Origin: Betaproteobacteria bacterium HGW-Betaproteobacteria-4
GTDB lineage: Bacteria > Pseudomonadota > Gammaproteobacteria > Burkholderiales > Rhodocyclaceae
Length of the DNA stretch: 64,000 bases
Direction: 5' to 3'
Assembly (NCBI GenBank): GCA_002840785.1
Contig: PHCH01000002.1
Span: 1-64,000 of the forward strand
The notes under the pieces: generated by a model
The model's input: only the letters and a program-made list of their open reading frames with translations
What the model was told of the DNA's origin: nothing
The model's database searches: none
Position numbers and translations under genes: made by a program
Shown: in pieces, positions 735 through 54,655 of the stretch
Layout of the letters: each line of letters begins with the position of its first letter
How positions within the stretch are numbered: the first letter of the stretch is position 1

Positions 735-773
735 TTTCCATTTTTGGCCTTTTTTCCGGTTGACCGTAGCAAT
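735..773 (+). repeat. Dispersed T-tract/CGGTTGACCG motif, copy 1
   Basis: First copy of the dispersed motif: AT-rich arm, T-run, then CCGGTTGACCGTAGCAAT. It is intergenic, just after the terminator. The 349-bp gap between genes (650-998) otherwise holds the terminator and a possible promoter for cydP. Confidence 0.85.
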
Positions 774-946
774 GGCCGATTGCCCCGGTGCGCCAGGGAC
801 AAGCATCGCGTCCTGCCAATAATGACAGACACCACCGCCAAATACGACAACGCATCATCCGAAAAGTAGCCGAATCGCCCCCGCGACCGAATGTCGCACC
901 CATTCCATCTCATTGATCGAACGGCAAATTATTTCGGGATGACGGC

Positions 947-962
947 TGGCACGAGTCTTGAT
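947..962 (+). promoter_or_regulatory. Possible sigma-54-like promoter upstream of cydP
   Basis: TGGCACG at 947-953, then 4 nt, then TTGAT. This matches the sigma-54 -24 element fully, with correct spacing, but the -12 element has TTGA in place of TTGC, and the -12 GC is normally important. It lies 37 bp before the chosen cydP start. It may be a weak or chance match. Confidence 0.25.
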
Positions 963-998
963 AAGCAAACACTGATACTTCTATCCCGACTACGTCCG

Positions 999-1199
999 AT
1001 GCCCCGCAAGCCTGTCAATCTTCGCCACGAACTTACCCTCCTCGTGATCATCAAGCTGATGGTGATCATCGGCCTGTGGTGGGCTTTCGTGCGCGAGGCA
1101 AAAGTCGAGGTGGATAGCGAGCGGATTGCCACGCATCTCTCGGCACCGGCCGTAGCAGCCAGTCCAACTCATCACACAGGAAACCCCCATGTTCAGTGA
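999..1199 (+). CDS. cydP: Cytochrome bd oxidase putative small subunit CydP
   Basis: A 66-residue protein with a basic N-terminus, one transmembrane helix (about residues 12-29) and a short polar tail. Size, layout and position directly before cydA fit CydP, a small protein often found upstream of cydAB in betaproteobacteria. The ATG at 999 is chosen over an in-frame start at 891 because the longer N-terminus has no family-like features. Its TGA lies 11 bp inside cydA, so the two are translationally coupled. Confidence 0.75.
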
Positions 1200-2745
1200 G
1201 CAACTCGTCGACCTGTCGCGCCTGCAGTTCGCCGTCACCGCGATGTACCACTTCCTTTTCGTGCCGCTGACCATCGGCATGACCTGGATCCTGGTCATCA
1301 TGGAAGCGGTCTATGTCATGACCGGCAACCAGATTTACAAGGATATGACCCGCTTCTGGGGCAAGCTTTTCGGCATCAACTTCGCGCTCGGCGTGACCAC
1401 CGGCATCACCATGGAGTTCCAGTTCGGCACCAACTGGGCGTATTACTCGCACTACGTCGGCGACATTTTTGGCGCACCGCTGGCTATCGAAGGTCTGATG
1501 GCCTTCTTCCTCGAATCGACCTTCATCGGCCTGTTCTTCTTCGGGTGGGATCGCCTGTCGCGCCGCCAGCACCTGTTGGTCACCATCCTCATGGCCGTCG
1601 GCACCAATCTCTCGGCCCTGTGGATCCTGATCGCCAACGGCTGGATGCAGAACCCGGTCGGCGCCGAATTCAGCTACGTGACGATGCGCATGGAAATGGT
1701 CGACTTCTGGGCCGTCCTGTTCAATGCCGACGCCCAGGCCAAGTTCGTCCATACCGTCTCGGCCGGCTACGTCACAGGCGCCATGTTCGTCCTCTCGATC
1801 TCGGCCTTCTACCTGCTGCGCGGTCGCGATGTCGAGTTCGCCAAAAAGAGTTTCCGCATCGCCGCCGCCTTCGGTTTCGCCTCGATCTGCTCGGTCATCG
1901 TCCTCGGCGACGAATCCGGCTACACCGTCGGCGAAGCCCAGCAGACCAAGCTGGCCGCCATGGAAGCGATGTGGGAAACCGAACCGGCACCGGCCGGTTT
2001 CAACCTGATCGCCATCCCCAACGAAGCCGAAATGAAGAACGACTTCGCCATCGAGATTCCCTGGGTCATGGGCATCATTGGCACCCGTTCGCTCGACAAG
2101 CAGATCCCCGGCATCAAGGAAATCCGCGAGAAGAACCGCGAGCGCATCCTTTCCGGCATCGAAGCCGTCACCGCCCTCGAAGCGCTGCGCAAGGATCCGG
2201 CCGACGCTGCCATGAAAACCCGTTTCGAGGAACACAAGGCGGATCTCGGCTTTGGCCTGCTGCTGAAGAAATACGTCGCCGACGTTCGCCAATCAACCCC
2301 GGAAATCATCGAAAAAGCCGTCGCCGATACCATCCCGCGGGTTACGCCATTGTTCTGGAGCTTCCGGATCATGGTCGCCTTCGGCTTCCTGATGCTCGGC
2401 TTGTTCACCGCAGCGCTGATCTATTCGCTGAAAGGCAATTTCGCCGACAAACCCTGGCTCCTGCGCTCCGCCCTGTGGATGCTGCCGGTTCCCTGGCTGT
2501 CCTGCGAGCTGGGCTGGTTCGTGGCCGAATACGGCCGGCAGCCGTGGACCATCTACGGCGTGCTGCCCACCCACATGTCGGTGTCGACCCTGTCGGTAAA
2601 CAGCCTGTACGGCTCGCTGGCCGGCTTCATCGGCTTCTACACCGTGCTGCTCGTCGTCGAGATGTACCTGATGGTCAAGTTTGCCAAGCTCGGGCCGGGC
2701 AGCCTCGGTACCGGCCGTTATGACAACGAATACGCCCACGCCTGA
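1189..2745 (+). CDS. cydA: Cytochrome bd ubiquinol oxidase subunit I
   Basis: 518 residues, close in length and sequence to E. coli CydA (522). It oxidises ubiquinol and carries hemes b558, b595 and d, reducing O2 to water at low oxygen. Visible landmarks are the N-terminal SRLQFA..MYHFLF segment with heme ligand H21, the conserved FGTNW and MQNP loops, a long Q-loop (about residues 245-385), and the quinol-site motif GRQPW near residue 450. The long Q-loop places it in the L subfamily. It is the second gene of the cyd operon and is followed by cydB after 39 bp. Confidence 0.97.
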
Positions 2746-2784
2746 GAAAACACGCGATGAAAACTCGACTCACAAGGAAAGAAC

Positions 2785-3924
2785 ATGCTTGACTATCCAA
2801 CCCTGAAAATCATCTGGTGGCTGCTGGTTGGCGTGCTGCTCATTGGCTTCGCCATCATGGACGGGCACGACATGGGCGTCGGCACCCTGTTGCCTTTCGT
2901 CGGCAAGAACGACGTCGAACGGCGCATCGTGATCAATACCGTCGGCCCGCACTGGGATGGCAACCAAGTCTGGTTCATCACCGGTGGCGGGGCTATTTTC
3001 GCCGCCTGGCCGCTGGTTTACGCCACCGCTTTCTCGGGCTTTTATTGGGCGATGCTCGCCGTACTCTGGGCGCTGTTCTTCCGTCCGGTCGGTTTCGATT
3101 ACCGCAGCAAGATCGCCAACGCGACCTGGCGCAATACCTGGGACTGGGGTCTGTTCGTCGGCGGTGCCGTGCCGCCGCTGATCTTCGGCGTCGCCTTCGG
3201 CAACCTGTTCCAGGGCGTGCCCTTCAGCTTTGCCGACAACCTGATGTCGACCTACAGCGGCAGCTTCTGGGGTTTGCTCAATCCCTTCGCCCTGCTCTGC
3301 GGCGTGGTATCAACGGCGATGATCACCTTCCACGGAGCGATCTATTTGATGCATCGCACCGACGACGCGGTCTATCGCCGCAGCCGCACTGCCATGCTGA
3401 TCTTCGGCGGGCTGCTGCTGGTCAGCTTCACGGCAGCCGGCATCTGGCTGTGGCAAGGCATCGAAGGCTACGCCATCACCTCAACGGTGACCCCGGGCGC
3501 CCTGCCCAATCCGCTCGACAAAACCGTGGTCCGCGAAGCCGGTGCCTGGCTGGCCAATTACGACCGCCACCCCGCCACAATGCTCTTGCCGGTCCTCGCC
3601 TACGCCGGCGCCCTGACCGCCATGCTGCTCGCCGCCAACGGCGCGACGCTGGCCGCCTTCGTCGCCTCCTCGCTGGCCATCCTCGGCATCATCGGCACGG
3701 CCGGCGTCTCGCTCTTCCCGTTCATCATGCCCTCATCGAGCGACCTGCGTTCCAGCCTCACTGTCTGGGACAGCGTTTCCAGCCAGTTGACGCTAAACAT
3801 CATGCTCTGGGCAACCCTGATCTTCATGCCGCTCATCATTGTTTACACCAGCTGGGCTTACAAGGTGATGGCCGGCAAGGTCACCGCCGCCTACATCCGC
3901 GAAAACGAGCACGCCGCTTACTAA
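2785..3924 (+). CDS. cydB: Cytochrome bd ubiquinol oxidase subunit II
   Basis: 379 residues, the same length as E. coli CydB. It begins with the typical MLDYPTLKIIWWLLVG and has the conserved MDGHDMGVG and GPHWDGNQVW motifs plus about eight transmembrane helices. It forms the heterodimer with CydA that holds the oxidase together. An AAGGAAAG ribosome-binding site lies 7 bp before the ATG. The next gene, a Rieske protein, starts only 10 bp after the stop, which is not the usual cydX arrangement. Confidence 0.97.
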   Translation: MLDYPTLKIIWWLLVGVLLIGFAIMDGHDMGVGTLLPFVGKNDVERRIVINTVGPHWDGNQVWFITGGGAIFAAWPLVYATAFSGFYWAMLAVLWALFFRPVGFDYRSKIANATWRNTWDWGLFVGGAVPPLIFGVAFGNLFQGVPFSFADNLMSTYSGSFWGLLNPFALLCGVVSTAMITFHGAIYLMHRTDDAVYRRSRTAMLIFGGLLLVSFTAAGIWLWQGIEGYAITSTVTPGALPNPLDKTVVREAGAWLANYDRHPATMLLPVLAYAGALTAMLLAANGATLAAFVASSLAILGIIGTAGVSLFPFIMPSSSDLRSSLTVWDSVSSQLTLNIMLWATLIFMPLIIVYTSWAYKVMAGKVTAAYIRENEHAAY

Positions 3925-3934
3925 GGAGTCTTCC

Positions 3935-4555
3935 ATGTCTGAATGCATCTGCCAAGGCCCATCCTTCACCACCGTCGACAGCCCGGCCCGCCGACAGTGG
4001 CTGATGGCCACCGTTGGCGTCGGCGGCGCCCTCACCGTCACGGCCATCGTGCCCTTCGTCACCAGCCTGATGCCATCCGAGCGGGCCAAGGCAGCCGGCG
4101 CGCCGGTCGAAGTCGATATCGGCAAGCTGGCTCCCGGCAACATGATGATCGTCGAATGGCGCGGCAAGCCGGTGTGGATTCTCAACCGCACCCCGGAAAT
4201 GCTGGCCGCCCTCAAGAAAGCCGAACCCATGCTGGTCGATCCGGCCTCCGAGGAAAACCAGCAGCCGGCCTATGCCGCCAACGAAACGCGCTCGCGGCAG
4301 CCGGAAATACTCGTCGCCGTTGGCATCTGCACCCACCTCGGCTGCTCGCCGTCACCGGCTTTTACCCCCGGTGACCCCGCGCTCGGTGCCGACTGGCCGG
4401 GTGGTTTTCTCTGTCCCTGCCACGGCTCGACGTTTGACTTCGCCGGCCGTGTTTTCAAGAACAAGCCGGCCCCGACCAATCTCGAAGTGCCGCCCCACCA
4501 ATACCTGACCGACACGCGCCTGATCATCGGCGCCGACGAACAGAACCAAGCCTGA
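3935..4555 (+). CDS. Rieske [2Fe-2S] protein (PetA-like) inside the cyd operon
   Basis: A 206-residue protein with an N-terminal twin-arginine segment (RRQWLMATVGVGG) that would serve as Tat signal and membrane anchor. A C-terminal Rieske domain carries both cluster motifs, CTHLGC (about 132-137) and CPCHGS (about 160-165). The fold is that of the ubiquinol-cytochrome c reductase iron-sulfur subunit. That gene normally sits with the bc1 cytochrome b and c1 genes. Here it lies between cydB and cydX with 10-12 bp spacing, so it is cotranscribed with the bd quinol oxidase. Either bc1 Rieske expression has been tied to the bd operon, or this is a second Rieske serving another quinol-dependent complex. 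Confidence 0.9.
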   Translation: MSECICQGPSFTTVDSPARRQWLMATVGVGGALTVTAIVPFVTSLMPSERAKAAGAPVEVDIGKLAPGNMMIVEWRGKPVWILNRTPEMLAALKKAEPMLVDPASEENQQPAYAANETRSRQPEILVAVGICTHLGCSPSPAFTPGDPALGADWPGGFLCPCHGSTFDFAGRVFKNKPAPTNLEVPPHQYLTDTRLIIGADEQNQA

Positions 4556-4567
4556 AAGGAATTCGCC

Positions 4568-4702
4568 ATGTGGTATTTCGCCTGGGCACTCGGTATCGGC
4601 TTTGCCGTACTGCTCGCCATCCTCAATGCCCTCTGGGGCGACAACGAAGAAGCCCGACTCGCCTCGCTGCGCCCGACGTCCCCCGATGACCGCCCAAACT
4701 GA
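4568..4702 (+). CDS. cydX: Cytochrome bd oxidase small subunit CydX
   Basis: A 44-residue single-helix protein starting MWYFAWALGIG and containing NALW, the hallmark of the CydX/YbgT family, which stabilises the heme b595/d site of CydAB. An AAAGGA ribosome-binding site precedes the ATG. In the standard order cydX directly follows cydB. Here the Rieske gene intervenes. The last 17 bp overlap the start of cydE. Confidence 0.93.
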   Translation: MWYFAWALGIGFAVLLAILNALWGDNEEARLASLRPTSPDDRPN

Positions 4703-5003
4703 AGCGCAATCAGACACACCGGATAAACCCGGCCTGGCCTGGCTGCCCTTGTTCCTGGCCCTGCTCATCCTCGTCGTCATGACGGTTCTGCCCGGCATGG
4801 CCACCGACGATGACGGCGTAGCCGATCACACGGCCGCCATGCTGTTGTTCGGGGCGATGAGCGCCGGGTTCGTGCGCGGCGTCGGCTTCGTTCCGCGCAA
4901 CCTGATCGGTCGCGTCCTGCTCTCGGGCGCCGCGACCGTCATCCTCTTCCTGCTGGCCTGCCTGCGTTTGATGCAGAACGGGCGCCTGCCCCCCATTTTC
5001 TAG
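4686..5003 (+). CDS. cydE: Cyd operon protein, YbgE family
   Basis: A 105-residue membrane protein with about three hydrophobic segments and the family-typical G(F/V)xxGVGFxPR block (about 60-72). YbgE/CydE proteins are encoded in cyd operons; their role is unclear. The ATG at 4686 overlaps the cydX stop by 17 bp and is preferred over a further-upstream start that would lie entirely inside cydX. Confidence 0.8.
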   Translation: MTAQTEAQSDTPDKPGLAWLPLFLALLILVVMTVLPGMATDDDGVADHTAAMLLFGAMSAGFVRGVGFVPRNLIGRVLLSGAATVILFLLACLRLMQNGRLPPIF

Positions 5004-5011
5004 GAGTCATC

Positions 5012-5380
5012 ATGCAAATCGCTGTCACCAGCCAAAACCGGAAAAACGTCACCGAACACGCCGGCAAATGCCGCAAGTTCTGGCTTTACGATATTGAAAA
5101 AGGCGCCATCACCGACAAGCACCTCGTCGAGCTGCCCATCGAAGACAGTTTTCACGCCCGCCAGCACTGCATGGCCGACGAGCTGGCCGGCATCAACGTA
5201 CTGATCACCGGCAGCATGGGCAACGGCCTGTACCACAAGCTCCTGCAGCGCGGCATCCTGTCCGTCATCACCCTTGAAGAAGACCCGGACAGCGCCGTCT
5301 CCGCCTTCCTCGACAACCGCCTCGACCGCCTGCCGCTGCCCGACAACACCCATTGCCAAGGCCATGACCATCACCACTGA
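5012..5380 (+). CDS. NifX/NifB C-terminal-domain protein (iron-molybdenum cofactor binding family)
   Basis: 122 residues of the dinitrogenase iron-molybdenum cofactor-binding fold (NifX/NifY/VnfX group): an N-terminal IAVTSQNxxxVTEHAGKCRKFW, a central HCMADEL..VLITGSMGNGL and a His-rich tail (HCQGHDHHH). Family members bind metal-cluster precursors. Outside nitrogen-fixation loci their role is mostly unknown. It starts 8 bp after cydE with a good ribosome-binding site (TAGGAG), so it appears to be part of the cyd transcript. The tail may bind a metal ion. No nif genes are visible in the window. Confidence 0.85.
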   Translation: MQIAVTSQNRKNVTEHAGKCRKFWLYDIEKGAITDKHLVELPIEDSFHARQHCMADELAGINVLITGSMGNGLYHKLLQRGILSVITLEEDPDSAVSAFLDNRLDRLPLPDNTHCQGHDHHH

Positions 5381-5849
5381 ACCCCGCACCATCACCCCGC
5401 TGCTGAGCCGTCGCACGATTCCGCGCCTGCCCATCCAGGGCCTGCTCCTCGGCTGCCTGCTCGCCGCCGGCCACAGCCAGGCCGAAGAAAGCCGGCTGGT
5501 CGTCAACCTGCTCGGCGTGCGCGACGCGACCGGCAATCTGCGCGCCTCGCTGTACCGCGAACCGGACAGCTTCCGCAAGGAAGACAAGGCGGTGAAAGTC
5601 GCCACGCTGCCGGCGGCCAAGGGCAACGCCAGATTCGTCTTCACCGGCCTGCCCGCCGGCCGCTACGCCGTCATGGCCTATCATGACGACAACATGGACC
5701 AGAAACTCAACCTGCGTTTCGGCATGTTCCCGACCGAAGGCTACGGCCTCTCCAACAACCCGAAAGTCATCGGGCCGCCGAAATTTTCCGACAGCGCCTT
5801 CGACCTGGCCGGGCCGGAAACCGCCATCGACATCAAACTTGCTTACTAA
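5364..5849 (+). CDS. DUF2141 family exported protein
   Basis: 161 residues. A basic N-terminus precedes a hydrophobic segment (about residues 25-40) ending at a plausible signal-peptidase site near HSQA-EE. A beta-rich domain follows with the DUF2141 signature: LVVNLLGVRDATGNLRASLY, then the F.GLPAGRYAVMAYHDDNMD block and a C-terminal LNLRFG.PTEGYGLSNN segment. Function is unknown in the family. The start chosen at 5364 overlaps the NifX-like gene by 17 bp, continuing the tight operon. Confidence 0.8.
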   Translation: MTITTEPRTITPLLSRRTIPRLPIQGLLLGCLLAAGHSQAEESRLVVNLLGVRDATGNLRASLYREPDSFRKEDKAVKVATLPAAKGNARFVFTGLPAGRYAVMAYHDDNMDQKLNLRFGMFPTEGYGLSNNPKVIGPPKFSDSAFDLAGPETAIDIKLAY

Positions 5850-5867
5850 CCACAAAAGGTAAAACCC

Positions 5868-6257
5868 ATGAAACAGACCCTGCTCCAGGAAAAGTACCCC
5901 GTTTTCGTCGCCGAGATCGCCAAAACCGAAACCACCTACAACACCGTCGATGAACTCATCGCCTACTACAAGGGCAAGATCGCCGAGAACCCGAAGGTCC
6001 AGTTCATCGGCGTCTTCGACCACTACGCGCATACCAGCAAGATCGGTGGCCCCATCGTCGAAGGCATGAAGGCCGCAGTCGACATCATTTTCTGCTTCGG
6101 CTTCGCCATCCCGACCCCGCAAATGCTCGCCGTCCGCCCCCGCTCCATCGGCATCGCCGACATGGGCGACAAATACGTCGTCAGCTTCATGGAAGCCCCG
6201 ATGCAACCGGCCAACGAAGCCATGGAAGCGTGGACCCTGGCCCTGCGCGACGCCTGA
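5868..6257 (+). CDS. Conserved hypothetical protein
   Basis: A 129-residue soluble protein with no signal peptide or membrane segment, starting MKQTLLQEKYPVF. It has notable conserved-looking blocks FDHYAHT, FCFGFAIPTPQMLAVRPRSIG and EAPMQPANEAME. I recognise it only as a conserved small protein seen in respiratory gene neighbourhoods and cannot assign a function. A good terminator follows, so it is probably the last gene of the cyd-led operon. Confidence 0.75.
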   Translation: MKQTLLQEKYPVFVAEIAKTETTYNTVDELIAYYKGKIAENPKVQFIGVFDHYAHTSKIGGPIVEGMKAAVDIIFCFGFAIPTPQMLAVRPRSIGIADMGDKYVVSFMEAPMQPANEAMEAWTLALRDA

Positions 6258-6273
6258 ACAAACCCGCCGCAAA

Positions 6274-6305
6274 CAAAAACCCCGGCGCTGTCAGGCCGGG
6301 GTTTT
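6274..6305 (+). terminator. Rho-independent terminator, end of cyd operon
   Basis: AAAACCCCGGC pairs with GCCGGGGTTTT around a short loop (6276-6304). The A-rich left and T-rich right flanks make it usable from both strands, which suits the convergent chrA gene. Confidence 0.85.
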
Positions 6306-6308
6306 GGC

Positions 6309-6348: not shown

Positions 6349-6361
6349 CGGCAATCCGGTC

Positions 6362-7585: not shown

Positions 7586-7614
7586 GATCAGAAACGCTTA
7601 TTCGATGACTGTAA

Positions 7615-8416: not shown

Positions 8417-9217
8417 ATGGTTTCCCCACGACTGGTAGCAAAAATTGAATCCGAAGAACCTACCCTCCGGCTTGCTGTGCTTATCGATGCGGACAATGCG
8501 CAAGCTGCCGTTATCGAAGGAATCCTCGCGGAAGTGGCTCGGTTTGGCGAAGCTTCGGTGAAGCGGATTTATGGCGATTTCACTTCCCCGAATAGCTCAT
8601 CCTGGAAAAAAGTTCTTCAGAAATACGCCATCAAGCCGGTCCAGCAATTTGCATACACAACAGGAAAAAATGCGACGGACAGCACACTCATCATTGACGC
8701 GATGGATCTGCTCTATACCCGCCGTTTAGATGGCTTTTGTTTGATTACCAGTGATAGTGACTTTACGGGTCTAGCCACTCGAATTAGAGAAGAAGGACTA
8801 TTGGTTTTGGGTTTTGGCGAACAGAAAACCCCTGACGCATTTCGAAATGCGTGCAATAAATTCATCCTCACGGAGGTACTTCGCCGACTTGTTTCCGAGC
8901 CCGAAGCGGCTCCAAATAAGTCTCATGTGACCCCTGTTGCAGTGGAAAAAACCAACCCAGAAAGGTTGGACTCCCCTGTTTTCCCCAAGGGGTTTCTACT
9001 TTCCGCCCTTGAAGAATCGTCAGACGAGAGCGGATGGGCTCATCTTGGCACTTTCGGCAGCTATCTCACAAAGCTCCAACCAGACTTTGATTCTCGGGTA
9101 TATGGCTTCAAGAAATTATCCGATCTGGTGAAGGCCAAGACTGATTTGTTCGTTACCGAAGAACGCCTACCACCTGGCGGCCAAACCCAAAAACAACTCT
9201 ACCTGCGCGCAAAGTAG
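8417..9217 (+). CDS. NYN (PIN-like) domain protein with C-terminal OST-HTH/LOTUS domain
   Basis: 266 residues. Residues about 15-160 form a NYN nuclease domain of the LabA/DUF88 type, with the acidic residues expected for a metal-dependent ribonuclease site: D24 and D26 in LIDADN, D88 in ATDSTL, D94, D113 and D115 in ITSDSDF. After a linker, residues about 195-262 match an OST-HTH (LOTUS) RNA-binding domain (GWAHLGTFGSYL...YGFKKLSDLVK). An AAGGCGG ribosome-binding site supports the ATG. It heads an AT-rich cassette with RavA- and ViaA-like genes. RNA cleavage or RNA binding is inferred from the domains; the target is unknown. Confidence 0.85.
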   Translation: MVSPRLVAKIESEEPTLRLAVLIDADNAQAAVIEGILAEVARFGEASVKRIYGDFTSPNSSSWKKVLQKYAIKPVQQFAYTTGKNATDSTLIIDAMDLLYTRRLDGFCLITSDSDFTGLATRIREEGLLVLGFGEQKTPDAFRNACNKFILTEVLRRLVSEPEAAPNKSHVTPVAVEKTNPERLDSPVFPKGFLLSALEESSDESGWAHLGTFGSYLTKLQPDFDSRVYGFKKLSDLVKAKTDLFVTEERLPPGGQTQKQLYLRAK

Positions 9218-9291
9218 TCAAAAAATCGGCGTGCGTTAGTTACCAACATGTGGTTTGCGTCGCTATAACAGCTCATCAAAACGGTGCCTTC

Positions 9292-10833
9292 ATGAAAAAC
9301 AATAAGCTCTCAGTTACGAATTCCCTACGAGATCGAATTGACCATCTGATCAAAGCAATTAGTGTGGGGATGTACGAACGGGAGGAAATAATCGCTGTTT
9401 CACTCCTAGCTGCGCTCTGCGGGCAGAATACATTTCTGTATGGCCCACCGGGAACAGCAAAGAGCCTGATATCCAGGCGTCTCTCCTGCGCTTTTCACAA
9501 ACCGGTCTACTTTGAATATTTGATGAACCGCTTCAGCACACCAGAGGAAGTGTTCGGTCCGGTTTCGATCAAGGCATTAAAGGAGGATCAGTATATTCGG
9601 AAGACAGATTCCTATCTCCCGAAAGCAGATTTCGCCTTTCTCGACGAGATCTGGAAATCCAGTCCTGCAATCTTAAACACCCTTCTGACACTCATCAACG
9701 AACGGATATTCAAGAACGGTGAAACCATAGAACAAGTGCCACTCAAGGCATTACTTGCTGCATCAAATGAAACGCCGGACATAAATCAAGGGTTAGAGGC
9801 GCTATATGATCGTTTCATTGTCCGATTGATGGTTCAGCCCATCGGGGAATTGCAACACTTTGAGTGGTTACTGAACAGTAAACCCAGTTCGGCAGAGGTT
9901 GATGTTCCTGAGGAGCTTCGCATTAAATCTGATGAATGGGGTGCTTGGCTGCACCATATTCACACAGTTGCCCTCTCCTCGGAAACACTGACTATCGTTC
10001 ATCTGATCCGTGAAAAACTGGCGAAATTGGATGAGTCGAACACGATTTACGTATCTGACAGGCGCTGGCAGCGAGCTGCCATATTGATGAAAGCTTCGGC
10101 GTTCTTTAATGGAAGAATGGAAACAAGCCATAGCGATGCGTTGCTGTTGCAGCATTGCCTTTGGACGCAAGAAAAAAATCATCAAGCTGTGACGGATATT
10201 GTCATGGAGGCGGTAAAGGAATCGGGAATTAATAGTGGATATAGCTTGGCCGAGATTGACCGAAAAAAGGAAACCCTCGACCAAGAAATATCTGAGGAGC
10301 TATTTCATTCGTCAGACATATACAAGACAGAAACAATACAGGAAAAAGAGTTCTTTAAATTCGCCCCGAACTTCCCTCGCTCAGGACACTACAACTCGAG
10401 TAAGTTGATTTACCTTTCATGTGAAAAAATTAAATCCGCGACCCCCTTCAAGCCCGTGGATATATCTGGCAATGAGATTCGAGAAATCGAATGCTCTTTC
10501 GATGGCCAAGGGTCGTGTAGGGTTCAATATATGCCGAATCGAGATTCGGTCAATTTCACGCCAGCCATCCTGTTTAATAAAGGTGACAAAAAAGAAGGCG
10601 TCAACCAGCGGCTTATTGCGGCGCTATCCAAATCAGTTTCAGAAATCAAATCTCAGCTTCTATCAGCATTAGATATAGTAACAAATAATTTTTCAAAAAT
10701 TGAATCTGAGCTTGCTTCTCTTTTTGTGCCAACCGATAAAACCAATCTGGCTATTCTTGGTATTTCTGAGCAGGTTGAAAGCTTGAAACTTCGCATCAAG
10801 GATTGCGAACGGCTTGAAGAGCTATGCCGATAA
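9292..10833 (+). CDS. RavA-like MoxR-family AAA+ ATPase
   Basis: 513 residues from the ATG at 9292; a start at 9250 is also possible and neither has a strong ribosome-binding site. The N-terminal AAA+ module follows E. coli RavA closely: RAxGxYER-like lead, Walker A GPPGTAKS (51-58), EYLMNRFSTPEEVFGP, Walker B FAFLDEIW (114-121), sensor 1 AASNETPD and YVSDRRW. The C-terminal third is divergent, with a long helical end instead of an obvious LARA domain. Its stop overlaps the ViaA-like gene by 10 bp, as expected for obligate partners. MoxR ATPases act as chaperone-like remodellers with VWA partners. Confidence 0.9.
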   Translation: MKNNKLSVTNSLRDRIDHLIKAISVGMYEREEIIAVSLLAALCGQNTFLYGPPGTAKSLISRRLSCAFHKPVYFEYLMNRFSTPEEVFGPVSIKALKEDQYIRKTDSYLPKADFAFLDEIWKSSPAILNTLLTLINERIFKNGETIEQVPLKALLAASNETPDINQGLEALYDRFIVRLMVQPIGELQHFEWLLNSKPSSAEVDVPEELRIKSDEWGAWLHHIHTVALSSETLTIVHLIREKLAKLDESNTIYVSDRRWQRAAILMKASAFFNGRMETSHSDALLLQHCLWTQEKNHQAVTDIVMEAVKESGINSGYSLAEIDRKKETLDQEISEELFHSSDIYKTETIQEKEFFKFAPNFPRSGHYNSSKLIYLSCEKIKSATPFKPVDISGNEIREIECSFDGQGSCRVQYMPNRDSVNFTPAILFNKGDKKEGVNQRLIAALSKSVSEIKSQLLSALDIVTNNFSKIESELASLFVPTDKTNLAILGISEQVESLKLRIKDCERLEELCR

Positions 10834-12317
10834 GCCCAATCTTATTCGCCTCAGAAAGCATCAGCGACGAGATCAACTCTTCCTATTCCGCACTGCTGGC
10901 CAATTCAAATGCCATCCACAGCCACGTCACTGATCGAATCAGGCAATGGGAGTTGGTGACGACGTCCATTCTCGATTCGAGATTTCCCTTTTTGTCGCAA
11001 GAACAATATTTTTCCGACTGGCACAATCGACTGCAAAGCCCAGCCATTTCCGAGAGCGACCTTGCTAAGGCTGTGGATGGGTACATGGATTTCTGCAAGG
11101 AAACTGGGCATCCCGCTAACGAATCGTTTTGGCGAGGTCAGTTCAAATCAAAAATGCCGAAAACGCCCATTGCCCAAAAGCTCGCTGACGACACATCCAT
11201 TGGAATCCGCCTCTTGTTGAATGAATGGCAAAAACGAATGGATCAAGTTCGTGCGGAATGGGAACTTCGAGAAATCGAGGCACGCCGGGCGGCTCTCATG
11301 GTAGAACTCGAAAAAATATTGCGCTCATTGAAAGACTTGCAAGAGCGGCTTCAAGAACTTGGCCTAGATACGGGCCTCTTGCTTGACCTGTCCAAGGGAA
11401 ATCTTACTGCTCAGGACATCCAGCAATTCGAGCGATGGGCAAAATACCTTGCGGAAGATAAGGGCATCAGGACGCTGTGCGAACTCTTGGGAAAAATTCG
11501 ACAAATCGAACTGTCGGAAAAAATAGAGCGCGTCAGGTCTGTCACTCCTGTTCAAGCACAACTGCCTGACATCAACTCGCGGGAGGAAATTATCGGCATC
11601 CGGCTTGGGCGTGATCTTGAACATGTGTTGCCCTCTGAACTTGCGCTACTTGCAGACCATGACACTTCCATCCTGTTCGACCTGAAATATGTCGAATCCA
11701 GTCTTATGTGCTTTGATATGAACGGTATTCAAAACATTCATAGGCACGTGGAAACAGAAGAAGAGCGAAGGATTAAAGAAGCCGAAAAGCAAGGCCCATT
11801 TGTTATTTGCATCGACACCAGCGGATCAATGAAGGGTTCGCCCGAGACTGTCGCCAAGGCTGTCGCTCTTTTCCTTGCCACGAAAGCAAGGGAGCAGAAA
11901 AGACCCTGTTACCTGATCAATTTCTCGACAGGTATCTACACGTTGGATCTGAGTGCAGATATCGGCATGGAATCCCTGCTACGCTTTCTAGGGATGTCAT
12001 TTCACGGAGGCACTGATGTTGCGCCAGCCCTTGAGCACGCATTGGATAAAATGGAAGAGGATGCTTACAAAAATGCAGACCTGCTGATCGTTTCCGATTT
12101 CATTATGTCCGAACTGCCCGAATATTCGCTAGGCCGAATTGAGAGCCGAAGGCTTTACGGAAATCGCTTCCACTCGCTTGTTGTGGGGAACTGCTACATG
12201 TCCCAAAGGCTGAAAACGTATTTTGACAATGAATGGGTCTATGACCCGCGAACTAGTCGCATTCATGAACTGGTAAGTTTTGAGCGAAACATAATTGAGA
12301 AAGCGTGTGTTCAATAG
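10824..12317 (+). CDS. ViaA-like VWA-domain protein
   Basis: 497 residues. The N-terminal two thirds are helical and coiled-coil rich, as in ViaA. The C-terminal VWA domain (about 325-480) carries the metal-ion-dependent adhesion site: DTSGS near residue 331, the T of GGTD near 394, and D in IVSDF. GPFVICIDTSGSM and SFHGGTDVA align with E. coli ViaA. It is encoded 10 bp inside the end of the RavA-like gene, so the pair is coupled. In E. coli, RavA-ViaA act at respiratory complexes and in aminoglycoside sensitisation. Whether this cassette does the same, with a NYN protein added, is unknown. Confidence 0.9.
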   Translation: MPISPILFASESISDEINSSYSALLANSNAIHSHVTDRIRQWELVTTSILDSRFPFLSQEQYFSDWHNRLQSPAISESDLAKAVDGYMDFCKETGHPANESFWRGQFKSKMPKTPIAQKLADDTSIGIRLLLNEWQKRMDQVRAEWELREIEARRAALMVELEKILRSLKDLQERLQELGLDTGLLLDLSKGNLTAQDIQQFERWAKYLAEDKGIRTLCELLGKIRQIELSEKIERVRSVTPVQAQLPDINSREEIIGIRLGRDLEHVLPSELALLADHDTSILFDLKYVESSLMCFDMNGIQNIHRHVETEEERRIKEAEKQGPFVICIDTSGSMKGSPETVAKAVALFLATKAREQKRPCYLINFSTGIYTLDLSADIGMESLLRFLGMSFHGGTDVAPALEHALDKMEEDAYKNADLLIVSDFIMSELPEYSLGRIESRRLYGNRFHSLVVGNCYMSQRLKTYFDNEWVYDPRTSRIHELVSFERNIIEKACVQ

Positions 12318-17852: not shown

Positions 17853-19055
17853 ATGTTCTCCCGCCTCCTATTCGCCTCCCTATTCAGCCTGTGTCTCGCC
17901 TTCCCGGCCCGGGCACAGGGCGAGGTTGATCTTTACCTGTTCTGGTCCTTGCGCTGCCCGCACTGCCTTGAGGCGCGGCCGCAGGTGCAGGCGTTGGCGG
18001 CAGAGCAGCCGTGGCTACGCCTGCATGACCACGAAATCACCCAGTCGCCGGAAAACCTCGAACGCTTCGTCACTATGGCGCGCCAGCTTGGCGAAGAGGC
18101 GCAATCCGTCCCGACGCTGATTTACTGCGGCCGCATGGAGGTCGGCTGGGATGATTGTCCGGAAGCCAAAGCGGCCCTGCTCGCCCGGCTGGAAGCCTGC
18201 CGCGACGGCAGCGGCTCAACCGAAAAGCCCATCGCCAGCGCGCCACTGAACCTGCCGCTGATTGGCGAAATCGATCCAGCGTCGGCCTCGCTCCCCCTGC
18301 TGACCCTGCTGCTGGCCGGGCTGGATGCCTTCAACCCCTGCGCATTTTTCGTGTTGCTCTTTTTGCTGTCGCTGCTCGTCCACCAGCATCAGCGCCGCCG
18401 GATGCTGCTCATCGGCGGCGTCTTCGTCGCCTTTTCCGGGCTGATGTATTTCGCCTTCATGGCCGCCTGGCTCAATCTGTTTCTCGTCGTCGGCAGCCTG
18501 CCCTGGGTCACCGCCGGCGCCGGGCTGGTTGCCTTGCTGATCGGGGCGATCAACATCAAGGATTTCGTTGCGTTCAAGCGCGGGCCTTCGCTGTCGATTC
18601 CGGAAGGACGCAAGGCCGATATTTTCCAGCGCGGCCGGCGCATCCTGGCCGCCGGCAGTCTGCCGGCCATGCTGGCGGCGACCGTCGTCCTGGCCATTGC
18701 CGCCAATTTCTATGAACTGCTGTGCACGGCCGGCTTCCCGATGGTGTTCACGCGCCTGCTCACCCTGCGAGAGCATGGCCTCGGCCAACACTACCTGTAT
18801 CTGGCGCTCTACAACGTGATTTACGTTTTGCCGCTGCTCGTCATCGTGCTCGCCTTTGTCCGCTCGATGGGCAGGCACAAGCTCAGCGAACGCGACGGCC
18901 GGCTGCTCAAACTGCTCTCGGGGCTGATGATGGCCGGCCTCGGCGCCGTCCTGCTGCTGGCGCCGGAACGCCTCGACCAGCCGGCAGTGGCACTGGCCTT
19001 ACCCGCCATCGCCGTGGCGCTGACCTGGCTGGCCAGGCGCTACGGTCGATTTTGA
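17853..19055 (+). CDS. Thioredoxin-fold plus DsbD-like membrane protein
   Basis: 400 residues. A signal peptide (1-21) leads to a small periplasmic thioredoxin/glutaredoxin-like domain with a CPHC active site (C35, C38). Six or more transmembrane helices follow from about residue 145, beginning with DAFNPCAFFVLLF, which resembles the CcdA/DsbD electron-carrying segment with its NPC motif. A role in moving reducing power across the inner membrane to periplasmic thiols is inferred. The preceding DUF4395 gene is a frequent partner of such proteins. Its stop codon falls within a dispersed-motif copy. Confidence 0.8.
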   Translation: MFSRLLFASLFSLCLAFPARAQGEVDLYLFWSLRCPHCLEARPQVQALAAEQPWLRLHDHEITQSPENLERFVTMARQLGEEAQSVPTLIYCGRMEVGWDDCPEAKAALLARLEACRDGSGSTEKPIASAPLNLPLIGEIDPASASLPLLTLLLAGLDAFNPCAFFVLLFLLSLLVHQHQRRRMLLIGGVFVAFSGLMYFAFMAAWLNLFLVVGSLPWVTAGAGLVALLIGAINIKDFVAFKRGPSLSIPEGRKADIFQRGRRILAAGSLPAMLAATVVLAIAANFYELLCTAGFPMVFTRLLTLREHGLGQHYLYLALYNVIYVLPLLVIVLAFVRSMGRHKLSERDGRLLKLLSGLMMAGLGAVLLLAPERLDQPAVALALPAIAVALTWLARRYGRF

Positions 19056-49235: not shown

Positions 49236-49361
49236 CCACGACGTATCCGGTAAAGGACGTGCCCCGGGAAACATGCTTTTACATCTGGCAACTCGGGGCA
49301 AACATCTTTTCCATTAAGTTGGCATACAGTTATCTCTCCCAACAACAATCGCAACAACACC

Positions 49362-50650
49362 ATGAAACGCCCGCTTACCCTTCTCGCCCTGATCCCCCTC
49401 GCCCTGTGGGGAATCTTCGCCCTGCCCGACGTCCTCGCCGCCAACCCGGAAGGCCCCTGGGCCTGGCGGAAGTCGCTGATCATCCTGTCCGGCCTGCTCG
49501 CCCTGTGGTGGATGAGCGCCGGCATGCTGCTCGCCACGCGTGCCCCCTGGCTCGAACAACGTTTCGGCGGCCTCGACAAGCTTTACCGCCTGCACAAGAA
49601 CATCGGCATCGGTGCCGGCTTGCTCGTCTTCACCCACTGGATGATCGAATGGCTGCCCAAGAACCTGTCCAAGGCCGGGCTGATCACCGGTCCACGCGGC
49701 CCGCGCGGACCACGTGGCGAACCCAACCTGTGGATCGACCTGGCCAAGGATGTCGGCGAATGGGCCGGCTACATCCTGATGGCGCTGGTCGTCGTGGCCC
49801 TGATCAAACGCATTCCCTACCGCTATTTCCGCTGGGTGCACAAGGCCTTTGGCGCTGTTTTTCTGGCTGGCGCCTTTCACGGCCTGCTGCTCATGCCGAC
49901 GACTTTCTGGCAAAGCCCGCTCGGCTGGCTGACCGCAGCCGTCGCCGCGGCCGGTGTCATCCCCGCCCTGCTCTCGCTAAGCAATCGCATCGGCCGCAAA
50001 CGCCAGCATCGCGCCGAGATCGTTTCGCTCAGCCGGCACGACGGCAAGCTGCTCGAAATCGTCTGCCGCCCCGAACAGAACTGGCCCGGTCACCAGGCCG
50101 GACAATTCCTCTTCGCCAACTTCGGCTCGCGCGGCGAAGGCGCCCACCCGTTCACCATCGCCTCGGCCTGGAACGCGCAGGAAGGCACGCTGACCCTGGC
50201 CATCAAGGCGCTCGGCGACTTCACCGCCCAGCTCCCCGCCTTGATTTTTCGGCAAAAATTCCGGTTGACCGTGGGAATGCGGCACATCAGGTTTGGGTCG
50301 CCGGCGGCATCGGCATTACGCCCTTCCTCGCCCGCCTTGAGCAACTGGCCGCCGCCCCGGCGCCAGCGCAAGCCACGGCCGATCTGTTCTACTGCACACC
50401 AAATTTCGCTGCCGGCGATTTCCCCGAACATCTGGAAACCCTCTGCGACGCCGCCGGCGTCCGCCTGCACCGCCGCCAGACCGACAACACCGGCCCGCTC
50501 ACGCCGCAGGAAGTCGCCGCGACGCTCCAGCCAAACAGCACCGTCTGGTTCTGCGGCCCGGCTGCCTGGGGCAAGGCTCTGGGCGAAGCGCTGCACAACA
50601 GCGGCTTGTCCCGTAAAGCCTTTCACCAGGAAGCCTTCGAGTTCCGCTAA
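49362..50650 (+). pseudogene. Ferric reductase-like transmembrane protein, frame broken at a dispersed-motif copy
   Basis: The N-terminal part (49362 to about 50245) has a ferric-reductase transmembrane domain with conserved heme-type histidines (LHKNIGIG, THWMIEW, VHKAFG, FHGLLLM) and a flavin-binding beta-barrel (AHPFTIASAWN). The NAD-binding part (VWVAGGIGITPFLARLE ... WFCGPAAWGKAL) is in another frame and ends at 50650. At the break the expected VEGPYGRF loop is missing and a dispersed-motif copy is present. As read, the first frame would run on to 50768 as nonsense. It could be real decay or an assembly fault. Confidence 0.85.
50241..50279 (+). repeat. Dispersed motif, copy 13, at a frame break
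   Basis: TTGATTTTTCGGCAAAAA, then TTCCGGTTGACCGTGGGAATG. The core is intact, the AT-rich arm and T-run are irregular. It lies exactly where the ferric-reductase frame is broken. Confidence 0.75.
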
Positions 50651-50703
50651 GCCCCGCCTCGGCTGGTATCATGCGGCCTTCCCCACGAACCACATCCGCC
50701 GTC

Positions 50704-51048
50704 ATGATCAAGGTCTTTGGCATCAAGAATTGCGACACCATGAAGAAAGCCATGAACTGGCTCACTGAAAATGGTGTCGCCTACGAGTTTATCGACTACA
50801 AGAAAGCCGGCGTCGCCGAAGCCAACCTGCCGGACTGGAACGCCCGCGCCGGTTGGGAAAAGCTGCTCAACACGCGCGGCCTGATGTGGAAGAAGCTCAG
50901 CGACGAGGAACGTTCTGCGGTCGACGAGCCAAAAGCCCTCAAATTGATGGCGCAATACCCGAGCCTGATCAAGCGCCCGGTCCTCGACACCGGCAGCCAG
51001 CTCATCGTCGGCTTCGCGCCGGACAACTACGCGGAAAAACTAAAGTGA
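50704..51048 (+). CDS. ArsC/Spx/MgsR family protein (YffB-like)
   Basis: 114 residues with the thioredoxin-like opening KVFGIKNCDTMKKAMNWL (C10), IDYKKAG and KRPVLDTGSQLIVGF. This is the ArsC-like family that includes YffB and Spx. A single N-terminal cysteine suggests glutathione-dependent thiol chemistry; arsenate reduction is unproven. Its stop overlaps the hslO GTG (GTGA). Confidence 0.88.
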   Translation: MIKVFGIKNCDTMKKAMNWLTENGVAYEFIDYKKAGVAEANLPDWNARAGWEKLLNTRGLMWKKLSDEERSAVDEPKALKLMAQYPSLIKRPVLDTGSQLIVGFAPDNYAEKLK

Positions 51049-51920
51049 GCTACGTCCAGCGCTTCATTTTCGAAGGTCTCGACATTCGCGGCGCCGTCGT
51101 TCATCTCGGCGACGCCTGGCAGCAGATGCAGGCTGGCCGAGACTATCAGCCGACCGTCGCCCAATTGCTTGGCGAAACAGCCGCCGTCACGGCGCTCATC
51201 GCCGGCCAGCTCAAGCAGCCCGGCCGCCTGACGCTGCAATTGCGCGGCAACGGCCCGGTCCAGTTGCTGGTCATGGATTGCAATGAACAGCTGCAGATGC
51301 GCGGCATGGCGCGCAGCAACCCGGTCGTGCTGGCTGCGCCGGTGTCCGAACTACTCGGCGCCCACCAGGGCGGCCAACTCATGATGAGCCTCGACATGCC
51401 GGAAGCCCGCCAGCCCTATCAAAGCTACGTGCCGATGGTCGGCGACAGCATCGCGGCGATCTTCGAGCATTACCTCGAACAGTCCGAGCAGCAGCCGTCG
51501 CGCCTGTTCGCGGCGTGCAGCCCGGAAGCGGCGGCCTGCCTGTTCCTGCAAAAGATGCCGGCCGCCGACCATCACGACGAGGATGGCTGGCAGCGCATCA
51601 CCCAGCTCGCCGCCACGGTCAAGCCGGCCGAGTTGCTCGAACTCGACAGCGCCAGCCTGCTCGGCCGCCTCTTCCACGAAGACATGAGCGAACGCGGCAT
51701 CCGCCTCTACGATCCGCGCCCGGTGGCCTACCACTGCCCGGAAGACCGCTACAAGGTGGCCGACATGATCCGCAGCCTGGGCCGGGCCGATGCCGAGACG
51801 ATCCTCGTCGAACACGGTGAAATCGTCATTCGCGACGACATCTGCAACCGCGACTACCACTTCAGCGCCGATGACGTGGCCGCCCTGTTTGCCGTCAGCG
51901 AAGGCAAGGCCCTGCATTGA
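51045..51920 (+). CDS. hslO: Hsp33-type redox chaperone with a reduced zinc site
   Basis: 291 residues from a GTG overlapping the upstream stop. The body is Hsp33: [15 protein letters not shown], the [11 protein letters not shown] sheet, [10 protein letters not shown], and the C-terminal linker and zinc region. E. coli Hsp33 uses four cysteines (C232, C234, C265, C268). Here only two remain, C231 in YHCPEDR and C267 in [10 protein letters not shown]; the other two positions are tyrosine and aspartate. Normal zinc binding and disulfide switching are therefore doubtful. It overlaps the kinase gene at its end. Confidence 0.9.
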
Positions 51921-53263
51921 CCCTGCCGACAGACGCTTTCGTCCTCGGCCGTCGGGTCGAACTGCTCTATCGAAACGTCCTGCTCGGGCAGAGCGTTTCG
52001 CTCGTCAATGCCTCGATGCTGATCTGGGTCGCCGAGTCCCTGATCTCCAACCCGGCCATTTACGCCTGGTGGCTGGCCGCTGTCGCGATAGCCGGCCTGC
52101 GCATCAGCCAGGCCATCAGCTATCGGCGCACCGCCCTGCCGGACAAACTGGACAACGCCGGCATGTGGCGCCAGCGCGCCCTGCTCAGCGCCTGCAGCGC
52201 CGGCGTTGTCTGGGCCGGCGGCGCCCTGCTCCTCATGTCGCAAGGCAACACCTACCTGCAACTGTTCGTCGGCTTTCTCATGTCCGGCATGATCGCCGGG
52301 GCCGTGCCTATCCTCGCCGCCGACCGCTTCATATTCCGCTGCTACGCAATACCCATCGCGCTGGCCGTCGCCTTCGGCACGCTCGGCAGCGACCCGCTGC
52401 ACATCGCCTTTACCGCCATGTCGCTGCTCTTCCTGCTGGCCGTCACGCGCAGCGCCGATTTCTTTCACGGCACCCTGCAGGAAACCTTCCGGCTCGAACA
52501 CGAAAAGGATGGCCTGCTCACCGAACTGGAGCAAGCCAGCGCCACCGCCGAACGCTCGAACCGGGCCAAAACCGAGTTCCTGGCCAACATCAGCCACGAG
52601 CTGCGCACGCCGATGAACGGCATCCTCGGCTTTTCCGAACTGCTCGAGCAGGAGCCGCTCAGCGAAGCCCAGCAAGAGCTGCTCAAGCCCCTGCGCACCT
52701 CGGCCGAGGACCTCATGGCGCTGATCAACGACCTGATCCAGCTTTCGGCACTCGAAGCCGGGCACATCCAGCCGAGCCCGACCGCCTTTGCCATGAACGA
52801 TCTCGGCAACACCCTGCTCGCCGCTTATTTCAAGCCGAGCATGAGCAAGGGGCTCGACTTGCTGGAACAGTTCGATGCCGACCTGCCCGCCGTCGTCAAG
52901 GGCGACATTTCCCTGCTCCGGCAGGCATTTGCCCAGTTGATCGGCAACGCCATCAAATTCACCGAGCGCGGCAGCATCACCGTGTCGGCAAAAGTAGACC
53001 GTCTGACGGAAAAAACGGTGACCATCGAATTCGCCGTGAGCGACACCGGCCCGGGCATTCCGGCCGAGAAAATCAGCACCCTGAGCGGCCTGTTCACCCA
53101 GGTCGACAGCTCGAAAATCCGCCGCCATGGCGGCACCGGCATCGGCATTCCGATTGCCCGCAAACTGATTCAACTGCTGGGTGGCACGCTGCGCATCGAA
53201 AGCCAGGTCGGCGTCGGCAGCCGGTTCAGCTTCACGCTGCCCTTCGAACTCGCCGAGTTCTGA
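51917..53263 (+). CDS. Membrane sensor histidine kinase
   Basis: 448 residues from a TTG that overlaps the hslO stop (TTGA). About six transmembrane helices (about 25-190) are followed by a coiled coil, HisKA with [11 protein letters not shown] (phospho-accepting H227), and HATPase with [23 protein letters not shown] and [10 protein letters not shown]. No response regulator is adjacent, so its partner is unknown. Coupling to hslO suggests an envelope or oxidative stress setting, but that is only inference. Confidence 0.92.
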
Positions 53264-54655
53264 TCAGAGCACCTTGCCGGGATTCATCAGGCCGCGCGGA
53301 TCGAGCGCCTGCTTGAGCGAATGCATGAGCGCCATCTCGACCGCGCTCTTGTAACGCAGGATTTCCTCGCGCTTGAGCTGGCCGATGCCGTGTTCGGCCG
53401 AGATCGAGCCGTTCAGCGCGTGCACCGTGTCATGGACGAGGCGATGCACTGCCGGCTCGCTGGCGAGGAAGGTTTCGTTGTCGTAGGCATCAGCCTTCGA
53501 CAGGTTGTAATGCAGGTTGCCGTCGCCGACATGGCCGAAGGCAACGACGCGGATACCGGGAAAAGCGCTGGCCAGCACCGCATCGGCCGTCGCCAGGAAC
53601 TCGGGAATGGCCGAAACCGGCACCGAAACATCGTGCTTGATGCTGATGCCCTCGATCTTCTGCGCCTCCGAAACGCTCTCGCGCAGCGCCCACAGCTTCT
53701 TGGCCTGGGTTTCCGACTGGGCGACGACGCCATCGGAGACCTCGGCGCTGTCGATTCGTCCGGCCAGCCAGGCTTCGACGGCGGCCGGCTCGGCGTCGGA
53801 AAACTCGGCCAGGACGTACCACGGCGACGCTTCGCACGGCCGCGTTGTATCGGGAATGTGCTTGAGGACCAGCCCGAGCGCCGTTTCCGAAACCAGCTCG
53901 AAGGCCGTCAGTTGCGCATCGAAAGCGGTTTTTGCCGAATTCAGGAGGTCGACCGCAGCAGTCGGCGAAGCGACGTTGAGCCAGCAGGTGACCTGCCTTT
54001 TGGGCAGCGGAAACAGCTTGAGCACGGCGCCGGTGATGATGCCCAGCGTGCCCTCGGCGCCGATGAACAGTTGTTTGAGGTCGTAGCCGGTGTTGTCCTT
54101 GCGCAGGCCGCGCATGCCGTTCCAGATGTCGCCGTTGGGCAGGACCACTTCGAGGCCGAGCGTCAGTTCGCGGGTATTGCCGTAGCGCAAAACCTGGACG
54201 CCGCCGGCATTGGTCGACAGGTTGCCGCCGATCTGGCACGTCCCTTCCGACGCCAGCGCCAGCGGAAACAACCGGTCGGCGGCGCGTGCCACCTCCTGAA
54301 TGGCGGCCAGAGTGCAGCCGGCTTCTACTGAAATCGTGCTGTTTTTCCGGTCGACCGTAAGAATGCGGTTCAGGCGACTCAAACTGACGACCACCGCGCC
54401 GCCCGAGCCATCCGGCGTTGCCGCGCCGCACAGGCTGGTGTTGCCGCCCTGCGGCACGATGGCCACGCCGGCCGCGAGGCAGGCCTTGACGACCGCCGCC
54501 ACCTCGCCAGTGTTGCCGGGACGGACGACGCATCGCGCCGCGCCGCGATACCGACCGCGCCAGTCGGTGACGAAGGGGGCGATGTCGGCCGGCTCGGTCA
54601 GCACCTGCGCCGGGCCGACGAGAGCGGTGAGTTGATCGATCAGGGAATTGGTCAT
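53264..54655 (-). CDS. FAD-linked oxidase (GlcD/D-lactate dehydrogenase type)
   Basis: 463 residues from MTNSLIDQL (54655). A PCMH FAD-binding domain (IVPQGGNTSLCGAATPDGSGG, GGNLSTNAGGVQVLRYGNTRELTLG) and a C-terminal oxidase domain with HVGDGNLHYN and EHGIGQLKREE are present. It oxidises a 2-hydroxyacid such as glycolate, D-lactate or D-2-hydroxyglutarate. A dispersed-motif copy lies in frame where the protein reads RILTVDRKNSTIS, a segment that still fits the family (typically ILEIDPENRT). It is last in a minus-strand operon with patatin and rimO. Confidence 0.92.
   Translation of the reverse strand: MTNSLIDQLTALVGPAQVLTEPADIAPFVTDWRGRYRGAARCVVRPGNTGEVAAVVKACLAAGVAIVPQGGNTSLCGAATPDGSGGAVVVSLSRLNRILTVDRKNSTISVEAGCTLAAIQEVARAADRLFPLALASEGTCQIGGNLSTNAGGVQVLRYGNTRELTLGLEVVLPNGDIWNGMRGLRKDNTGYDLKQLFIGAEGTLGIITGAVLKLFPLPKRQVTCWLNVASPTAAVDLLNSAKTAFDAQLTAFELVSETALGLVLKHIPDTTRPCEASPWYVLAEFSDAEPAAVEAWLAGRIDSAEVSDGVVAQSETQAKKLWALRESVSEAQKIEGISIKHDVSVPVSAIPEFLATADAVLASAFPGIRVVAFGHVGDGNLHYNLSKADAYDNETFLASEPAVHRLVHDTVHALNGSISAEHGIGQLKREEILRYKSAVEMALMHSLKQALDPRGLMNPGKVL
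54329..54365 (+). repeat. Dispersed motif, copy 14 inside FAD oxidase gene
   Basis: TGAAATCGTGCTG, T5, CCGGTCGACCGTAAGAATG. The core is the perfect palindrome CGGTCGACCG. It is inside the coding frame, with the protein still in register with its family. Confidence 0.8.

Follow-up and report, generated by a model that had tools for sequence, protein, structure and literature searches.

Only two bacterial families are named as showing DNA uptake specificity of this kind in the accessible part of PMC12616744. The described systems closest to the element analyzed here are the uptake signal sequence (USS) of the Pasteurellaceae and the DNA uptake sequence (DUS) of the Neisseriaceae, whose receptor is ComP. 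In the USS, as laid out in the accessible part of PMC1626085, the core is directly followed on the 3' side by one AT segment and, roughly a helical turn further on, by another, dialects occur within one clade, and the consensus is strong; the second AT segment reads AAAATTTTGCAAAT in two Apl-type species, and the inner core is GCGG (PMC12616744, in the part noted above). The Pasteurellaceae cores are AAGTGCGGT (Hin) and ACAAGCGGT (Apl). Here we analyze a dispersed 40-bp motif in the first 64,000 nucleotides of contig PHCH01000002.1 of Betaproteobacteria bacterium HGW-Betaproteobacteria-4 (the window, meaning the whole stretch at its full length; the host draft genome is G000). We consider it probable that the motif serves the Azonexus/Dechloromonas group as a self-DNA uptake signal that is USS-like, has its own sequence and spread by biased import. 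In the best reading, it would be a third, independent DNA uptake signal, and its resemblance to the Pasteurellaceae USS is taken as convergence.

Searching the window with the core CCGGTTGACCGTAGCA and up to three mismatches returned 15 matches, compared with a mean of 0.47 and a largest value of 2 in 100 shuffles. They correspond to the 14 clear copies and the single weak copy (29030) of a first-pass annotation, each listed point lying within a few bases of a copy or inside it, and they occur in both orientations as it had claimed, with nine on the forward and six on the reverse strand. The whole-motif profile adds a 16th, degraded copy. The copies are as follows.

733 to 775, forward strand: copy 1, exact core, with the first arm displaced by one base, 55.8 bits
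6308 to 6350, forward strand: copy 2, exact core, 62.8 bits
8074 to 8116, forward strand: copy 3, one core mismatch, 60.9 bits
14855 to 14897, reverse strand: copy 4, exact core, 64.2 bits
19048 to 19090, forward strand: copy 5, exact core, between convergent open reading frames (ORFs) ending at 19055 (forward) and 19112 (reverse), 58.9 bits
24184 to 24226, forward strand: copy 6, exact core, 58.4 bits
25075 to 25117, forward strand: copy 7, exact core, 59.0 bits
29028 to 29070, forward strand: the weak copy, 40.2 bits
29382 to 29424, reverse strand: copy 8, 3' end of the core degraded, 53.0 bits
34585 to 34627, reverse strand: copy 9, palindromic core CGGTCGACCG, 63.6 bits
36820 to 36862, reverse strand: copy 10, 41.5 bits
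41491 to 41533, reverse strand: copy 11, 45.4 bits
42999 to 43041, reverse strand: copy 12, one core mismatch, 65.5 bits
50238 to 50280, forward strand: copy 13, inside long ORFs, an A-run replacing the second T-run, 47.0 bits
50909 to 50951, reverse strand: extra degraded copy, absent from the earlier list and found by the profile only, 19.1 bits
54324 to 54366, forward strand: copy 14, palindromic core CGGTCGACCG, 33.5 bits

The perfect palindrome attributed to copies 9 and 14 is present in both. AT-rich arm, T-run and core together make up a single 40-bp unit, ATTTCAATTTTGGCC-N-TTTTTT-CCGGTTGACCGTAGCAATC, and its borders are sharp, the per-column information over 52 sites reaching background within about two bases of either end. 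In the reverse complement, two AT tracts spaced by about 10 bp come after the core TGCTACGGTCAACCGG, the order being core, A6 and outer arm CCAAAATTGAAAT. The proposed helical phasing is borne out, as the tract centers lie about 10 bp apart in all nine motif-bearing samples. The tracts occur as T-runs or A-runs, which suggests that they are read by their shape rather than by their bases, and the recognized object seems to be the core together with two tracts on one face.

In the host draft genome (4.07 Mb, 174 contigs), CGGTTGACCGTAGCA occurs 449 times with at most one mismatch (207 forward and 242 reverse), while the reversed control pattern occurs 1 + 0 times, so that the genome-wide count, proposed earlier as a check, is far above chance. 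A refined profile was built on 459.3 kb of G000, comprising the window and 20 stretches of contigs C12, C15, C40 and C60. In this sample, 92 sites score 15 bits or more, 46 on either strand; the window contributes 16 of them, and a Markov shuffle contains none; the density of one site per 3.9 kb on C12, C15, C60 and C64 agrees with the approximately one per 4 kb claimed from the window. Core copies with zero, one and two mismatches number 32, 20 and 21 in the sample and 0, 0 and 2 in the shuffle. G000 thus shows a strong consensus, the pattern described for USS and DUS in the accessible part of PMC1626085.

An exact search of public contigs, which may omit records close to the window's own, located the motif in at least 84 stretches from Azonexus, Dechloromonas, Rhodocyclaceae and vaguely named proteobacterial metagenome-assembled genomes (MAGs), and several of these motif-bearing records, including an Azonexus MAG, align to the host at roughly 90%. 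From these exact matches and alignments we infer that the host belongs to the Azonexus/Dechloromonas group, which includes perchlorate and nitrate reducers. Core counts across the host's genus range from 449 down to none. With a profile of 60 sites in the G000 dialect (E 0.01), at least one match was found in 71 of the 76 genus genomes, many having at least about 84; a low count with this profile is no proof of absence because it rests on the G000 dialect, and four low-count genomes (G047, G044, G100 and G035) were checked profile-free. Outside the genus, there are only isolated matches, namely one to four in 19 of 285 genomes from other genera of the family (21 candidates scored per genome) and a single core match in 5 of 40 genomes belonging to other families within the order. 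In 40 kb from each of two other Rhodocyclaceae genera, the motif word was not among the five top 9-mers listed. Extra-generic matches are paired on one contig in G153 (C15, 6055 and 11485) and G193 (C150, 38766 and 41448), which would fit the acquisition of an Azonexus-type DNA fragment.

9-mer counts were also compared with Markov expectation in samples of 100-460 kb from nine motif-bearing and four other genomes of the genus. The most over-represented 9-mer was a motif word in seven of the nine motif-bearing samples, being GTTGACCGT in G000 and G104, GTCGACCGT in G101 and G031, GTCGACCGC in G030 and G051, and GTTGACCGC in G059, and a motif word ranked second in G015 and G048. In the four low-count genomes, the motif word was absent among the listed over-represented 9-mers. 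Around the octamer GTYGACCG, AT excess peaks at positions -19 to -16 and -8 to -7 in all nine motif-bearing samples, with a weaker excess also on the other side, while the four low-count genomes (14-23 octamers each) show scattered single-position excesses and no tract pair. The letters beside the octamer vary by dialect (TAGCA, TGAAA, CRRCA, CAA), whereas the tract positions stay constant. Motif refinement in G048 drifted to T-rich noise, and that logo was discarded.

In most points tested, the motif agrees with USS and DUS, and its layout is that of the USS. Read as the reverse complement, the Azonexus core has two AT tracts 3' of it that are spaced by about one turn; both systems have dialects within a clade, a strong consensus (for the motif, in G000 but not in G104 when counted with the G000 core), genome-wide over-representation on both strands, and no replication polarity (for the motif, in G104 only). 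The Azonexus core holds CGGTC, the G030-type dialects hold GCGGTC and with it the USS inner core GCGG, and the outer arm CCAAAATTGAAAT resembles segment 3 of the Apl type, AAAATTTTGCAAAT. The differences are that the Azonexus core is longer (about 16 bp) and near-palindromic, that its first tract lies several bp farther from the CGGT word, and that its density is lower, its host betaproteobacterial, and its part in uptake a prediction. The Azonexus motif does not match the cores AAGTGCGGT and ACAAGCGGT, and we did not file it as a Pasteurellaceae USS because only CGGTC/GCGGTC is common to both. With the DUS, it shares a betaproteobacterial host, genome-wide occurrence and several dialects (PMC12616744, accessible part), a ComP_DUS-family pilin, and a dyad arrangement of the kind noted for some DUS in the accessible part of PMC3630211. 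Unlike the motif, the DUS lacks flanking AT segments according to the same part of PMC1626085 and has the inner core CTG; the ComP-family pilin of the genus also occurs in its motif-free species. Among the literature matches listed, we found no earlier report of the motif or of uptake sequences in Rhodocyclaceae or Dechloromonas, and the main text of Kingsford 2007 (PMC1852404) does not mention Dechloromonas.

Among the other explanations, the one that survives best is an intracellular dimeric DNA-binding protein that organizes the nucleoid or marks the chromosome and uses the AT tracts as bendable flanks, which we regard as unlikely. It would fit the near-palindromic core, which in the G101 dialect is almost a full dyad (TTTTCACGGTCGACCGTGAAAA), the presence of the motif across much of the genus, and the somewhat even spacing in G000 (coefficient of variation 0.66; Kolmogorov-Smirnov p 0.017 against an exponential, for 83 spacings on C12, C15, C60 and C64, C40 omitted). 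On the complete chromosome of G104, where GC skew puts the terminus near 2.4 Mb, 18 of the 20 stretches sampled contain sites and the other two are low in GC (0.52 and 0.55); exact copies divide about 55:45 between leading and lagging orientation (100/111 places, a hand count from bins). The suggested comparison of spacing and strand bias with origin and terminus thus gave neither a gradient nor polarity on this single complete chromosome. This result, together with the four sampled species of the genus in which the motif is not over-represented, disfavors the chromosome-marker role that the first-pass annotation had offered as its alternative. Both strong AT tracts, moreover, are on the same side of the octamer, the opposite side having only the weaker excess, and hundreds of redundant 40-bp sites would be hard to maintain by selection on each site.

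A bolder reading concerns the origin of the USS likeness: the Azonexus signal and the Pasteurellaceae USS might be read by related pilin receptors, as one recognition module rather than by convergence. It draws on the polarity that both have in common, on the word GCGGTC in dialects of the G030 type and on the outer arm AAAATT...AAAT, and we give it little credence. If it were true, uptake codes would go further back in time and extend beyond the two known families, and the near-palindromic dialects would mark a receptor acting as a dimer.

That the motif is a small repetitive extragenic palindromic (REP)-like or miniature inverted-repeat transposable element (MITE)-like family copied by a transposase is very improbable. 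The abundance, the strong consensus and the preference for convergent intergenic gaps would suit such a family, but the unit is asymmetric and without inverted ends, its dialects shift base by base while the tracts stay fixed, and copies grade from strong to degraded, the degraded ones sitting in genes in several frames and both directions. We also compared 27 orthologous site pairs between G000 and its relatives (60-bp flanks, one alignment) and found substitutions and single-base gaps only. Gain or loss of a whole unit was seen in none of these 27 scored pairs, and duplicated flanks, which the earlier description had also denied, were not seen at the orthologous sites, sites at alignment breaks being unscored in both cases. 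In 13 of the 27 pairs, the relative's copy is one for which its locus was fetched; in the remaining 14, the motif is 94.4% identical, compared with 90.1% for the flanks, and the site is retained in 14 of 14 relatives.

The position of the sites relative to genes bears on a transcription-termination or 3'-end RNA element, which we think highly improbable. Using a home-made gene caller whose genes cover 78.5% of the sequence, 27 of 47 strong sites (at least 50 bits) are intergenic, compared with about 20% of random placements, and 14 of the 25 classifiable gaps are convergent, compared with 27% expected. This preference and the T-run would suit a terminator, but the T-run precedes the core, no two sites in G000 lie less than 150 bp apart, and 52 of the 92 sites are wholly within called genes; of the 20 weak sites, 18 are inside genes. 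KOPS, Chi, matS, parS and Noc signals are short words in many copies that are read by a protein and show replichore polarity or origin/terminus zoning. A polar replication or repair signal (Chi- or KOPS-like) or a terminus or origin mark (matS-, Noc- or parS-like) would explain an oriented, genome-wide motif and is extremely improbable, since the strands are equal overall and the motif is unzoned and unpolarized in G104, being present at origin, arms and terminus.

The uptake-signal reading itself, which the first-pass annotation had put forward, is partly supported: genome-wide over-representation, lack of strand or replichore polarity, near-absence from foreign islands, dialects on a fixed layout, the strong consensus in the host genome and competence genes speak strongly but indirectly in its favor, while uptake as such is only predicted. 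One such island is positions 1-100000 of contig C40 in G000 (GC 0.53-0.59), with 1 site compared with 25 expected. Judged by eye from protein starts, this region is rich in oxidoreductase, acyl-CoA and transport genes and has a transposase-like ORF, and is a probable acquired catabolic island. As to competence, comEC was matched in 75 of the 76 genus genomes (68 above the curated cut-off) and dprA likewise in 75 (73 above it); in the host, comEC lies in a 760-codon open frame.

In 10 genomes, comEC pieces on the same contig are separated by more than 1 kb, the break falling near profile positions 143-166 in eight and near 590 in two. Eight of these loci were fetched.

G111, C1, 2720418-2763735: comEC element with DNA-methylase-like and Vsr-like ORFs (by eye)
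G002, C33, 109617-143311: comEC element with a serine-recombinase-like ORF (by eye)
G103, C22, 222975-271519: comEC element
G005, C9, 209006-249642: comEC element
G044, C1, 2218699-2251157: comEC element
G018, C8, 1065462-1114276: comEC element
G056, C1, 179288-202425: comEC element
G029, C11, 203687-206051: comEC element

The intervening stretches measure 2.4-49 kb (273 kb in total), have a GC of 0.48-0.56 and carry no motif; in G018, a third comEC piece lies inside the stretch. The zeros from G044, G018 and G056 carry little information because these hosts are themselves motif-poor. In the five motif-bearing hosts, there are 0 sites in 169 kb of element and 8 in 38 kb of flanks, three of these eight being weak and all three in G103. 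comEC is a recurrent insertion target of low-GC elements in the genus, and transposable elements disrupting comEC have been reported elsewhere (PMC12955456, accessible part). The idea that comEC breakage led to motif loss was rejected, as the gene is broken in motif-rich G111, G002, G005 and G029 and in motif-poor G044, G018 and G056 alike.

Import can be approached through motif-poor G048, in which 11 of 21 listed matches (57 were counted in all, not all placed) fall within three patches of about 8-25 kb. The patches lie on C1 around 291-316, 1605-1617 and 3571-3580 kb, and the best motif copies cluster there. The segment 1605000-1611800, of whose 6.8 kb 2.5-2.8 kb aligns elsewhere, is 90-91% identical to motif-dense G104, G106, G111, G052, G054 and G000 and 79-83% to motif-free G047, G044 and G100. 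A control segment, 2005000-2011800, is 80% identical to G000, G052 and G054 and 78-80% to the same motif-free genomes; its nearest relatives are G005 (92%) and G007 (89%), and G104, G106 and G111 give short matches only. From this contrast, the G048 segment seems to have been imported from the motif-dense clade. In G005, contigs C50 and C83 carry the same locus in two versions, at 92% and 81% identity to G048, and G005 is probably a mixed assembly.

A number of observations weigh against the motif being an uptake signal. The import comparison consists of one patch and one control, with partial alignment of the patch; the patch is only 87% identical to motif-dense G002 and 87% to G007, parts of the G048 patches are 79-93% identical to motif-bearing loci, and G005, which has 10% contamination, matches both patch and control at 90-92%. 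Four of the six G048 stretches were selected for clustered matches, so that its 9-mer and tract profiles are biased. Absence from the island would be expected of any slowly gained host motif, and the motif-free comEC elements fit such a motif and an uptake signal equally. Fewer than 12 profile matches were found in 32 of the 76 genus genomes, although comEC and dprA are retained in nearly all, and comEC breakage has no clear correlation to the motif. The density of one site per 4-5 kb is below the approximately one per kb of classical USS and DUS (PMC1626085, accessible part). In G104, core copies counted with the G000 core and zero, one and two mismatches number 9, 23 and 34, unlike the USS pattern, and the near-palindromic core, near-completely dyadic in G101, suits an intracellular dimeric protein as well. 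No study of competence in the genus is among the literature matches listed.

The search for a receptor belongs to the same side of the balance. A ComP_DUS pilin (PF16732) is found in 70 of the 76 genus genomes, motif-bearing and motif-free alike; in the loci viewed, it lies downstream of a PilY1-like ORF. The ComGE model PF11773 has no match in the 76 genomes. Prepilins were surveyed by their N-methyl motif in complete genomes, motif-bearing G104, G111, G043 and G101 and motif-free G047, G044, G100 and G035, and some of the prepilin clusters were fetched and compared. A five-gene cluster, which we take to be MSHA-like, occurs in G104, G111, G043 and motif-free G044, and G100 and G035 have genes related to it. 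The clusters compared are found in both groups and pointed to no receptor, the family of the candidate USS receptor ComN/PpdA not having been searched.

If the motif is an uptake signal, a surface receptor on the type IV pilus, probably a minor pilin, would bind the core TGCTACGGTCAACCGG in free DNA, and the two AT tracts one turn apart on one side would make it possible for the helix to bend or kink as the DNA is pulled in by the pilus. A single strand would then pass ComEC, be protected by DprA and recombine with the chromosome. We propose that motif-carrying DNA would be taken up more often, so that alleles with the motif would be copied into more genomes; the motif would build up in situ by point mutation, most readily at places where it damages neither a gene nor a promoter, and recent islands would stay free of it. 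As a third independent case, with dialects and motif-free sister species in one genus, it would let one study how an uptake code arises, drifts and is lost. It would also offer a new system for the receptor search, and would suggest a route for delivering DNA into these environmental bacteria by adding the motif to it.

Two further observations concern the surroundings of the motif. Within the window, a low-GC cluster (0.47) at 8417-12317 encodes an NYN and OST-HTH/LOTUS protein, a MoxR-type AAA ATPase and a VWA protein; the interval between 8116 and 14855, which spans it, is without a motif copy. In G120, from another Rhodocyclaceae genus, the overlapping words CGCCGCTCC and GCTCCCACA are strongly over-represented, and we take them to resemble a Pseudomonas-type REP element.

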